NCBI GenBank assembly: GCA_035574315.1
Contig: DATLYW010000019.1
Coordinates: 38,939 to 102,938, forward strand
Direction: 5' to 3'
Length of the DNA: 64,000 bases
Source of the DNA: Candidatus Zixiibacteriota bacterium
Lineage (GTDB): Bacteria > Desulfobacterota > Binatia > UBA9968
Positions 12,564 to 16,375 of this stretch are shown piece after piece. Numbering within the stretch: the stretch's first letter is position 1; each line of letters begins with the position of its first letter. The notes beneath the pieces are model-generated. The model did no database searches and was not told the origin of the DNA. It saw nothing but the letters and a program-made list of their open reading frames with translations. A program made the translations under genes and the position numbers.

Positions 12564-13718
12564 TCAGAAATAACGCCAGAGCCACCACTTCTCGAAGCCG
12601 ATCTTCGCCCAGTAGATCAGCCGCGACGGACCCCAGGTGCGGGGCTCCGTGACGCCGAAAGGCGGCCAGCCGGTCGGGTATACGGTGCGGTTTGCGGCGG
12701 CGCGACCCGCGCCGAACGCGAGCAGTCATATCGTGTGCAGCCAGAGATCGACGGGCCTCCCTTTACCCGTGATCTCGACCGCCAGGTTGTGAGCCAGGAC
12801 GTCGGCCTCCTGGTGCGCCACGCCTCCGGCTTTCGAGGCCGGCATGTCGGCACAGTCGCCGATCGCGTAGACGTTTTCCCACTTCGTGCGAAGCGTGTCG
12901 TAGTCGACCCGGATGCCGTTTTCCGTCTCGGCAAGCCCGCTGTCCAGCAGGACCTGCGCCGGCCGATGCGGCGGCACCATGACCAGCAGATCGTAAGGAA
13001 GACTGTAGCCGTAAAGGCCGTAGACGACCTTTTTCCGCGGGTCGATGGAGTGAACCACGAACTCGTAATTCTGCTTGATGCCGCGGCGCTTGCTCTCCGC
13101 GTCCATCCACACGACGGGATCGTGCGCCTCGCCGGTGGGCTCGGGCTCGCGGGTGAAATACTCGATCTGCACACGCTCCCGGATGCCGCGCTGGCGGAAA
13201 TACTCGTCGATCAGCCACTGCGTCTCGTACGGCGCCGGCGGGCAGCGGTACGGCCCGAGCGGGACGCCTACCACGATCCGCCCGCCGCGAAACGAGGCGA
13301 GGGCGTCTCGAAGCTTCAAGGCGCTCTCCATTTCCCAGGGATGGAGCGAGGCCTCCGCGAAGCCCGGCACCAGGTCGGGTCGAGTCTGCAGGCCGAGCGA
13401 GACGATAAGGTGGTCGTACCCCACTTTTTCGTTCTGGAGAACCACCTCCTGGCGCACGGGATCGATCCCTACGATTTCCGAGCGGATCAGTTTGACGTTT
13501 CTCTTCCCGAGGTGCGAGAGGCTGCGACTGATGTCCGAGGGAGTCCGCCGGCCGATCATGAGGAACAGGAAGGCGGGCATGAAGATGTGCTCGGCCCGCC
13601 GGTCGATCAGCACGACATCGTGGTCCGCGCCGAGGAGCCGCCCGAGGCGCGTGGCTGCAACCACGCCGCCGCAACCTCCGCCCAGGATGACGATTCTCTT
13701 TCGCCCGTTCAAAGCCAT
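12564..13718 (-). CDS. Sulfide:quinone oxidoreductase / flavocytochrome-c-sulfide-dehydrogenase-like flavoprotein, predicted selenoprotein (Sec331)
   Basis: Read through an in-frame TGA at 12726-12728, the gene encodes 384 residues; stopping there gives a truncated 330-residue product. Before the UGA: an FAD glycine motif (VILGGGCGGVVAATRL, from residue 10), the redox cysteine segment GPYRCPPAPYE with Cys159, and the second FAD motif VYAIGDCADMP. After the UGA, in the same frame, comes a typical SQR/FCSD tail: LLAFGAG directly after the UGA, and PSRLIYWAKIGFEKWWLW near the end, then TGA at 12564-12566. The UGA sits where this family has its C-terminal redox cysteine (the C of CIADFG-like motifs), so Sec331 and Cys159 would form the redox pair, as Cys161/Cys337 do in FCSD. 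A hairpin follows the UGA. Expected reaction: sulfide (or related thiol/selenol) oxidation to the quinone pool at the membrane. Alternatives are a pseudogene or a sequencing error. Confidence 0.8.
12698..12714 (-). promoter_or_regulatory. Candidate bacterial SECIS element of the SQR-like gene
   Basis: On the minus strand the 17 bases CGGCGCGGGTCGCGCCG form a perfect 7-bp stem with a GGT apical loop (GGUC at the apex). The loop begins 18 nt after the UGA at 12726-12728. Published bacterial SECIS rules, as I recall them, need a short stem-loop 16-37 nt after UGA with a G in the first two loop positions. The E. coli fdhF element also shows GGUC at its apex. The region is G+C-rich, so a stem alone would be weak evidence; position and loop make it credible. 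Confidence 0.65.
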
Positions 13719-13732
13719 CGAATCCGGGGGTA

Positions 13733-13930
13733 TCAGTCGTGCCGCTGACGCTCGAGCCGTTCCAGGCGCTGGCGGGAGCGGATTGCGAGCCCTTCGAGGT
13801 TTCGCAGCCGCTGCTCCCGCCACATGCGCTGCTCGTAGCGCCCGTCGCGCGTGAGCTCGCTCCCGAAACGCGAGGTCACGTGCAGGAACCACAACAACAG
13901 CCTGTCAGACAGATCCTTGACCCACTCCAT
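13733..13930 (-). CDS. Small hypothetical protein
   Basis: 65 residues starting MEWVKDLSDRLLLWFLHVTSRFG, followed by a highly charged helical tail (RYEQRMWREQRLRNLEGL, RQRLERLERQRHD) that may form a coiled coil. The first helix is amphipathic and could touch the membrane. It lies 14 bp upstream of the SQR-like gene and 54 bp downstream of the DapA homologue in the same direction, so it fits as an operon member. No family recognised; the main doubt is its small size. Confidence 0.5.
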   Translation of the reverse strand: MEWVKDLSDRLLLWFLHVTSRFGSELTRDGRYEQRMWREQRLRNLEGLAIRSRQRLERLERQRHD

Positions 13931-13984: not shown

Positions 13985-14953
13985 TTAACGGAGGAAGGTA
14001 TCTTCCTGCCGGAGCTTTTCGCTGGCTTCCAGCAATCCCTTCGGCGTCGGCCCCGCCTCGCCGATGAGGCCGACCTGCCGCAGAAACTGACCGATCTGCT
14101 CGTGGTCGCGCGGGCTCACGGGCGCATAGGGCCTTGCTGGATTCCCGATGTCCACCCCGAAATGCTTCATCGCCGACTTCATTACGGGCGGCAGGCCGTA
14201 GGCCGCCCATTTTCCCGGAAACAGCGCGTAGCAGCGCGCCCAGAACCGCGCCGTTTCCAGATCCCCCGCGCGGAAGGCACGCACGATCTGCGCCCCGATG
14301 CGCGTACCGGGCGGCGGCATCGTCGCCCCCGACCCGCCGAGCATCAACGTCACCAGAAGCGGCTGCATCGTCGTGAAATAGTGGCCGCGACCGGCGAGCT
14401 CGATTTGCTCGATCAGTCTCGAAATTTTGGTGATATCCCGCGAGCTTTCCTTGAAGTACCGGATGTTGTCGATCTCGCTGATCTTCACGAACGCATCCTG
14501 TGGAGGATCGGCGCCCGGCCCGGGATTGTGATAGCAGGTGACCGGCAGCGGGCTCGCCGAGGCGACCTGCGTATAGAACTCCATCAGCTCCGCGATCGTC
14601 GGCTGCCCTCCCCACGGGCGCAGCGGCATCAGCACCTGAACGAGATCGCCCCCCACCTTCGCCGCATACTCGGCTAGCTCGATCACTTCCCGTGGCGAGG
14701 GGCTCGAGCAGCCCAGGATGACGGGCACGCGGCCGCCGATCATCTCGGTGGCGATGCGCAGCAACTCCTTGCGCTCCTCGCGCGAGAGCATCGTGTACTC
14801 GGCGGCCTCGACCGCGGCGACCGTGATCGCGTCACAGTCCGGGATGAGGAACTCGATCTCCCGCTCGAGCGCCTTGTAATCGACGCGATCGTCCTGGCCG
14901 AACGGCGTCAGGCAGGCGCCGATGATTCCTTTGATCGGTTTGGCGAGGGCCAT
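13985..14953 (-). CDS. Dihydrodipicolinate synthase (DapA) family aldolase/lyase
   Basis: 322 residues forming the N-acetylneuraminate lyase/DHDPS TIM barrel. It starts MALAKPIKGIIGACLTPFGQDDRVD. The Schiff-base lysine is expected in IRYFKESSRD (about residue 166) and the proton-relay tyrosine in PVTCYHNPGPG (about 140). It differs from true DapA in the loops, so the substrate is probably a different 2-oxo acid. It is the third gene of an operon with the heme-oxygenase-like and cyclase genes (11-bp spacing), which argues for a dedicated catabolic pathway rather than lysine synthesis. Confidence 0.88.
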   Translation of the reverse strand: MALAKPIKGIIGACLTPFGQDDRVDYKALEREIEFLIPDCDAITVAAVEAAEYTMLSREERKELLRIATEMIGGRVPVILGCSSPSPREVIELAEYAAKVGGDLVQVLMPLRPWGGQPTIAELMEFYTQVASASPLPVTCYHNPGPGADPPQDAFVKISEIDNIRYFKESSRDITKISRLIEQIELAGRGHYFTTMQPLLVTLMLGGSGATMPPPGTRIGAQIVRAFRAGDLETARFWARCYALFPGKWAAYGLPPVMKSAMKHFGVDIGNPARPYAPVSPRDHEQIGQFLRQVGLIGEAGPTPKGLLEASEKLRQEDTFLR

Positions 14954-14964
14954 CGCGCTCTACC

Positions 14965-15624
14965 TCAATGCAGAATTTCCGCCACGATTCGGGCGTGCCC
15001 CGCGTCGCTGCCCTTGACCCTCAGAGGCAAGGCGAGGATCCGGGTCTTCTTGCCCAGAATGCTCCCCAGGTTGACCACGTTCTCCGCGATCAGGACGCCG
15101 TTTCCGAGCAGTGTCCGGTGCACCGGGAAATCGAACCCTTTGGGTCGGAGCGGCGTCGGCAGGTCGACGGTGATGCAGTCGATCCCGAGCATCTTGATCC
15201 CCTTCTTGACCATCCACTCCGCCGCGTCGACCGAAAGATACGGGTGCATGTTATACTCCGGGCTGTCGAACTTCTCGTCCCAGCCGGTGTGCAGCATCAG
15301 GATGTCGCCGCGGTTCACCGCCACCCCGGAGGCTTCCAGGTCCGCCGCCGTCACCTCCTCGCCCCCTTTCTTGTCGACGTGGATCACCGCGCCCGGACCG
15401 ACGAACGCCTCGAGCGGAAGCTCCTCGATCGACTTGCCGTCCGGCACGATGTGAATCGGCGCGTCGACGTGCGTGCCCGCGTGGCAGGGCAAGGAGAGCT
15501 CGGTCACGTTCAGCGGGTGACCTTTCTCCAGGCTGAAGAATTTCTGCACGCGAACCTCCGGCAGAACCGGGATCTTCGGCATGCCGTCGTAGATCACGCG
15601 CGACAAATCGACCATCTCCATCAC
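14965..15624 (-). CDS. Cyclase family protein (kynurenine-formamidase-like metal hydrolase)
   Basis: 219 residues (the second Met may be the true start). The hallmark motif HAGTHVDAPIHI carries the His/His/Asp metal ligands of the KynB/isatin hydrolase fold, and the segment GIDCITVDLPTPLRPKG is typical of the clade. These enzymes hydrolyse amide or lactone bonds of small acids. It lies 10 bp downstream of the heme-oxygenase-like gene and 11 bp upstream of the DapA homologue, so the three are co-transcribed. Substrate unknown. Confidence 0.9.
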   Translation of the reverse strand: MMEMVDLSRVIYDGMPKIPVLPEVRVQKFFSLEKGHPLNVTELSLPCHAGTHVDAPIHIVPDGKSIEELPLEAFVGPGAVIHVDKKGGEEVTAADLEASGVAVNRGDILMLHTGWDEKFDSPEYNMHPYLSVDAAEWMVKKGIKMLGIDCITVDLPTPLRPKGFDFPVHRTLLGNGVLIAENVVNLGSILGKKTRILALPLRVKGSDAGHARIVAEILH

Positions 15625-15634
15625 GGTTCTCCTT

Positions 15635-16375
15635 TCAGCGGCCGTTGCGCCAGCGGGCGTAAAGCGGGTCCATGTCCACGAAAGCTCGCTTGATCCCGTC
15701 GAAGGCCAGCCAGAACTGGTCGAGCGTCTTTTGCACTGCGGCGCGAACGAGGTCCTGCTGGTAATCCGTGGTCGCGTAGCGCTCGACCGCCAGCGGCCCC
15801 ACCTTCATGTGCTCCTCGTCGACCCCCATGTGCAGGGTCCAGTAGCGGATGTCTTCGGAATCACGCTTGAAACCGTAATGCCGCGTAAGCCCGTTCACGA
15901 TGCGCGCCATCCGTTCGCTGGCGGTGCCTTCGAGGCAAAAACCCTGGCTGGCGAAGAGCTCGAGCCAGCTCCGCTGGTACATCAGCAGCTCCCGCCAATC
16001 GAGAAACGCCTGGGTTTCGGGCGTCGGCTCGACCCGGTCCAGCTCCTCCTTGGTGTAACCGCACGCCTCCGCGAACCGGATGAACAGCCCCTTGTGGCTG
16101 TCCGTACCGCTGATCTCCCCCGTTCCTTCCTCGACGACGTTCTCGATCCACATGCGCTCGAGGTCGGGATCGTCCGGACAGCGGCTGAGCATCGCGGCGA
16201 TGGGCTTCGGGAATGGCTTCGGAAAGAAAAGATAGAACTGCCCGACAAATCCCTTGAGCTGCTCGCGCGTCAGCTCGCCGTTCTCGATCATTCCGATGAT
16301 CGGGTGGTCTTTGGAGTGCTTGCTGCGCACCATCCCCCGAATCTCGGCAACGAAAGCCTGTGGTGACAGCGCCAT
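15635..16375 (-). CDS. Heme-oxygenase-like (PqqC/CADD/HDO) iron-containing redox protein
   Basis: 246 all-helical residues. Candidate metal ligands are the acidic stretch ENVVEEGTGE (78-87), H94, then H182, D186 and H189 in TLHMGVDEEHM, the spacing seen in heme-oxygenase-like diiron oxidases/oxygenases (HDOs) such as CADD and UndA. PqqC proper acts without iron, so the ligand set favours an oxygen-activating diiron enzyme. It is the first gene of the operon with cyclase and DapA homologues. Its substrate is unknown; oxidative C-C or C-N cleavage is a reasonable guess. Confidence 0.82.
   Translation of the reverse strand: MALSPQAFVAEIRGMVRSKHSKDHPIIGMIENGELTREQLKGFVGQFYLFFPKPFPKPIAAMLSRCPDDPDLERMWIENVVEEGTGEISGTDSHKGLFIRFAEACGYTKEELDRVEPTPETQAFLDWRELLMYQRSWLELFASQGFCLEGTASERMARIVNGLTRHYGFKRDSEDIRYWTLHMGVDEEHMKVGPLAVERYATTDYQQDLVRAAVQKTLDQFWLAFDGIKRAFVDMDPLYARWRNGR

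Follow-up and report, generated by a model that had tools for sequence, protein, structure and literature searches.

Predicted selenocysteine at the second redox position of a sulfide:quinone oxidoreductase-type flavoprotein in Binatia and related bacteria

The 64,000-nucleotide stretch of DNA considered here (the window; contig DATLYW010000019.1, positions 38,939 to 102,938, of the Candidatus Zixiibacteriota bacterium assembly GCA_035574315.1, class Binatia) carries on its minus strand a gene, 12564..13718, for a predicted flavoprotein of the sulfide:quinone oxidoreductase (SQR) type with an in-frame TGA at 12726..12728. This TGA very probably encodes selenocysteine (Sec), and the resulting Sec331 would replace the second redox cysteine of SQR and pair with Cys159 beside the flavin; to judge from the sequences compared, Sec is by far the best fit for codon 331. 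The source genome comprises 4.26 Mb in 53 contigs.

Conservation of the in-frame TGA and of the tail behind it

The open frame starts with the ATG at 13718 and closes with a terminal TGA at 12566-12564, and direct reading together with the orthologues gives a protein of 384 residues including Sec331. The 53 sense codons after codon 331 (12567..12725, minus), whose last residues are FEKWWLWRYF, are translated only if the inner TGA is read; they encode cap-sheet strands and a predicted membrane/quinone helix, residues 366-383, which is seen as the C-terminal helix in the structure model. A preliminary description of this DNA had pointed to the in-frame TGA and to its SQR-type tail, and direct reading confirmed both.

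Codon 331 was surveyed in 50 loci, made up of 24 relatives from a genome scan, those of a search across the class, and the window locus; several genomes are present twice, and three of the 50 end short of the codon. In all 47 loci covering it, the window included and with 30 distinct sequences among them, the codon is TGA, and it is kept down to approximately 50% identity in Binatia, Acidobacteriota and a Thermomicrobiaceae genome, the phylum of which we take as Chloroflexota. Searches of the latter two phyla added ten loci with TGA at codon 331, six of them from genomes new to the count. The same-order relatives include the Candidatus Binatia records L021 and L026; around codon 331 their sequence is that of L077 and L081, both assigned to this order in the class search.

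The tail measures 53 codons in every one of the 30 sequences, and its terminal stop varies among TAA, TAG and TGA, while the inner TGA is invariant. Relative to the window gene, dN/dS in the tail was 0.05-0.31 in seven of the eight pairs with computable dS, compared with 0.15-0.32 for the region upstream of the TGA; in the pair with L100, dN/dS was higher in the tail than upstream. The tail is thus under purifying selection, and the conservation of the in-frame TGA is far beyond chance. At the same time, among the 120 protein-database matches listed (of 2017), 119, the window's own included, stop one residue before the TGA, and the remaining one, the metagenome protein P0004, has Cys at position 331. 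An annotation cut in this way misses three features of the enzyme: its catalytic residue, quinone site and membrane helix.

These data also bear on the least probable of the explanations weighed, namely that the TGA is a true stop (of a truncated enzyme, a pseudogene or a sequencing error), perhaps with a peptide re-initiated from an overlapping start codon. Such a start codon does exist: Ile330, the codon before the TGA (12729-12731, minus), is ATA in 26 of 26 sequences with Ile, so that an ATG overlaps the TGA, and an ATG or GTG overlaps it in all 30. However, the +1 frame opened from it runs for 3 to 169 codons without conservation, whereas frame 0 has its constant length and is under purifying selection, and a stop at this point would have to be shared by all 47 loci. 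The invariant ATA may reflect Sec context or be a relic of coupling.

SECIS-like hairpin and selenocysteine machinery

A hairpin resembling a bacterial selenocysteine insertion sequence (bSECIS) lies behind the TGA at 12698..12714 (minus), with a 6-bp stem and an NGGNC loop placed 17 nt past the TGA; its presence had been put forward for checking in the preliminary description. The RNAalifold consensus has an energy of -10.55 kcal/mol. The bSECIS rules, as given in the available text of a 2026 review (PMC13188914), place the hairpin 16-37 nt after the UGA; at codon 331, 26 of 29 sequences (including that of the window) conform to them, and averaged over 349 codon positions the share is 9.4%. 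The only other positions reaching the level of codon 331 are 325-330, where the same hairpin is seen. GGC336 is invariant in 30 of 30 sequences and CGC339 in 28 of 28, despite four- or six-fold degeneracy, whereas codons 337 and 338, in the loop, show the expected variation.

The genome contains the complete set of genes asked for in the preliminary description. The genes for SelA (TIGR00474, 596 bits), SelB (TIGR00475, 400 bits) and SelD are grouped on contig C33. Approximately 17-20 kb from them there is a gene for tRNA-Sec (77 bits), to which ARAGORN assigns the anticodon tca. As a side observation, the selD gene (L002:5836-6909, minus, on the same contig) has an uninterrupted frame from its start only when a TGA at residue 26 (KAAGUAAK) is read, and it is therefore predicted to be a selenoprotein gene itself.

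The class search returned 41 of 148 genomes with a match at E <= 1e-30, comprising 26 with the window-type enzyme (at least 60% identity) and 15 with distant relatives only (approximately 28-35%). SelB was over the cut-off in 22 of the 26. Outside the class, it was over the cut-off in all four genomes of one set, as it was in the fifth genome (that of L020), a class member, and in all 14 genomes of a second set. Of these 14, six carry the window-type gene, one carries the locus L123 described below, and seven carry a gene of the NF049943-type family (type III sulfide quinone reductase, selenoprotein subtype), of which G278 was counted on a TGA within a match only. Among the control genomes, the corresponding number was two of 14.

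Readthrough of the UGA by a near-cognate tRNA, without Sec, would also yield the full-length protein, and it would be helped by the UGAC context found in 30 of 30 sequences, UGAC being a leaky stop context. We regard this explanation as highly improbable: the non-Sec relatives examined have Cys at the position, the TGA is followed by a hairpin with frozen codons, and the Sec machinery is present in the genome.

Active site, small partner protein and neighbouring genes

The window protein has an FAD-binding Pyr_redox_2 domain and the SQR fold, and its closest matches, in fold as in sequence, are to SQR or flavocytochrome c sulfide dehydrogenase. As the preliminary description had expected, residue 331 falls on the conserved redox cysteine: it aligns with Cys379 of human SQOR and with the cysteine of the CIADFG segment of Aquifex SQR, that is, the second redox cysteine. 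The first, Cys201 of human SQOR, aligns with Cys159 (TGC, 13242..13244, minus) within GPYRCPPAPYE. Phe375 (codon 12594..12596, minus) aligns with Phe385 of Aquifex SQR, and Ile330 and Leu332 with the apolar flanks of the quinone site; these site roles follow the available text of PMC9666304. The predicted Sec331 closes an HxxU motif, here HTIU. The family alignment had 145 rows, made up of 143 loci together with the window protein and P0004. Every row that reaches position 159 has Cys there, and every row that reaches position 331 has either Sec (TGA) or Cys, in agreement with what had been anticipated for homologues. The C shown in the rows of L027 and its duplicate L086 is an artefact of extraction across a frameshift; the codon in both is TGA. 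The window gene very likely encodes an SQR-type flavoprotein in which the predicted Sec331 stands in place of the second redox cysteine and would pair with Cys159.

In the mechanism proposed, the selenium of the Sec331-Cys159 bridge would be the point of attack for sulfide or a similar sulfur nucleophile, since selenium surpasses sulfur both as an electrophile and as a leaving group. The substrate sulfur would then be left on Sec331 and the electrons on Cys159, which would hand them to FAD and, from there, to a quinone held between the Ile330/Leu332 flanks and Phe375, the C-terminal helix keeping the enzyme on the membrane. The preliminary description had proposed a plain Cys159-Sec331 selenenylsulfide. 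The alignment of both positions with the redox pair favours such a pairing, and the simple bridge is amended here: by analogy with human SQOR, it may be Sec-Cys or may contain an extra sulfur, Sec-S-Cys (a seleno-trisulfide).

Directly upstream of the enzyme gene, profile search and synteny revealed a gene for a small protein of 65 residues (13733..13930, minus), the window copy of which has no Pfam or NCBIfam match. The profile was built from 12 proteins (the window and 11 loci, which match by construction), and with it the partner was found in all 52 loci of the window clade with at least 150 nt upstream (approximately 34 distinct, duplicates removed by hand); nine other loci of this clade are cut by contig ends upstream. 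Outside the window clade, the partner was undetected at E <= 0.05 in 82 of 82 loci, all but one of them with 300 nt or more of DNA upstream. Using the window copy alone, the class search found the partner in 25 of 148 genomes, all within the 26 carrying the enzyme; the exception, G510, has its enzyme gene truncated at the contig end. In all Acidobacteriota loci examined (seven, five of them distinct), partner and enzyme share a single open frame with no stop between them. Its longer copies (L020, L025, L100-L102, L104) have, by eye, a hydrophobic N-terminal stretch, and an SD...TSxF-like motif is carried by the window copy and by L022, L024, L028 and L130. This tightly linked, unstudied protein is a candidate subunit, and it is likely to be a dedicated subunit or membrane anchor.

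Further upstream, synteny and domain scans identified a gene of the dihydrodipicolinate synthase (DHDPS)/aldolase family (13985..14953, minus; PF00701, 114.7 bits), kept in Binatia and Acidobacteriota, and two genes kept in Binatia: a cyclase gene (14965..15624, minus; PF04199) and a haem-oxygenase-like/PqqC-TenA-like gene (15635..16375, minus; PF14518, 85.2 bits). The small gene is kept together with the aldolase in Acidobacteriota, and in L100 and L101 the aldolase lies downstream. The three genes at 13985-16375 form an uncharacterised cluster in Binatia.

Several observations weigh against the view of the enzyme as a selenium-dependent SQR with its own small partner. The sequences L030, L031 and L105 fail the strict bSECIS rules, and no compensatory change was found in the hairpin (0 covarying pairs), so that the case for the hairpin rests on the frozen synonymous sites. 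In G489, G511 and G520, the gene is present and selA is present, with selB below the cut-off, and in G519 (96% complete), selA and selB are both below the cut-off or absent. Moreover, 119 of the 148 class genomes have selB over the cut-off anyway, and its co-occurrence with the gene within the class is thus weak evidence. In L030, L031, L105 and their duplicates, the loci most distant from the window, the partner is matched weakly, at 16-22 bits. Finally, the neighbours of the enzyme gene are not sulfur-oxidation genes.

The substrate is, accordingly, the least certain part of the mechanism. Weak hints from the aldolase, cyclase and haem-oxygenase-like genes next to the enzyme gene point to sulfur derived from an organic compound and not to environmental sulfide. 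A Sec flavoprotein of SQR fold acting on a non-sulfide substrate, e.g., an organic thiol, persulfide or selenide supplied by the aldolase/cyclase genes, is a possibility to be taken seriously, if an unlikely one: the best matches are to SQR or flavocytochrome c sulfide dehydrogenase, and the alignment with SQR extends to both redox positions and to the Phe of the quinone site.

Origins of selenocysteine and comparison with known systems

A quick tree of 113 rows, with SH-aLRT supports only, was obtained after 32 duplicates, fragments and frameshifted rows had been left out. Sec occurs at three places in this family: in the window clade, in six loci of the window's GTDB phylum (L049-L052, L056, L061), and in L123. 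The latter is a third Sec-SQR lineage consisting of one genome from the search of the Thermomicrobiaceae phylum (L123:1420-2667, minus), with TGA at the same codon, a hairpin after it and selB in the genome. The window clade and P0004 stand together on one side of a branch with SH-aLRT 99. The Cys proteins L054, L057 and L060 are nested among the NF049943-type Sec proteins in this tree and possibly represent Sec-to-Cys reversion.

A single ancestral Sec-SQR could have given rise to both the window clade and the NF049943-type clade, with most descendants reverting to Cys. The two clades do share the codon column and the HxxU motif; the Cys homologue P0004 inside the Sec clade indicates that Sec/Cys change does occur; and the tree, which needs at least five Cys/Sec changes, does not separate gain from loss by such counts. 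Nevertheless, this history appears improbable: the Sec clades lie far apart among Cys proteins, the sequences past the TGA differ between them, and two joint groupings were rejected by the approximately unbiased (AU) test: window clade plus NF049943-type clade, nested Cys rows included (p 0.00025), and window clade plus L123 (p 0.0007). Both p values are valid for groups specified in advance.

Taken together, the chances appear about even that the window gene belongs to a two-component selenium SQR, with a Sec331-Cys159 selenenylsulfide or seleno-trisulfide and a dedicated small membrane subunit, that is widespread in Binatia, Acidobacteriota and Chloroflexota and represents one of three or more independent replacements of Cys by Sec at this catalytic residue of SQR. 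The enzyme occurs in many soil and groundwater genomes.

The preliminary description knew of no selenocysteine form of SQR. As a kind, it is preceded by NF049943 and the work behind it. Table 1 of the review PMC13188914, in its available text, contains a selenoprotein SQR with an HxxU motif, named type III sulfide quinone reductase and cited from deep-Sep; the available text of deep-Sep (PMC12013277) holds the first prediction of such a protein, from Desulfosediminicola, under the name NAD(P)/FAD-dependent oxidoreductase, and mentions TGA homologues in other bacteria. The window protein and NF049943 share the Sec column, the HxxU motif, the SQR-type sequence and a hairpin after the TGA. However, the window protein scores 254.4 bits and L030 of the same clade 268.3, both below the cut-off of 525; L049, the one scanned of the six NF049943-type loci, reaches 665, and L123 reaches 246. 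The NF049943-type proteins form a separate clade, and the small upstream partner was undetected at their six loci. What stood of the claim to novelty is therefore the lineage: the window clade looks like a separate, widespread lineage of a known idea, of which the literature search, with the deep-Sep supplement and Deng et al. 2026 outside its reach, found no description. The link of the small upstream protein to the Sec-SQR of this clade is new as far as our searches go.

The SQRs of Aquifex aeolicus and Acidithiobacillus ferrooxidans have Cys where the window protein has Sec, and their third cysteine is presumably missing from it. Unlike the flavin subunit of flavocytochrome c sulfide dehydrogenase, the window protein begins MALNGRKRIV without an evident signal (by eye), and no cytochrome or haem c subunit was found among the four upstream neighbours of the gene, the rest of the genome not having been searched for one. 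P0004, its metagenome Cys version, is 74% identical and equal to it in tail and length, with Cys at 331. Human SQOR is approximately 23-25% identical and has Cys379 in place of Sec; its Cys201-S-Cys379 trisulfide is said to give an approximately 10^5 rate gain over the disulfide. If the proposed mechanism is true, selenium could stand in for the rate gain that human SQOR draws from its extra bridging sulfur, and the repeated arrival of selenium at one SQR residue raises the question of whether it speeds sulfide capture without that sulfur.
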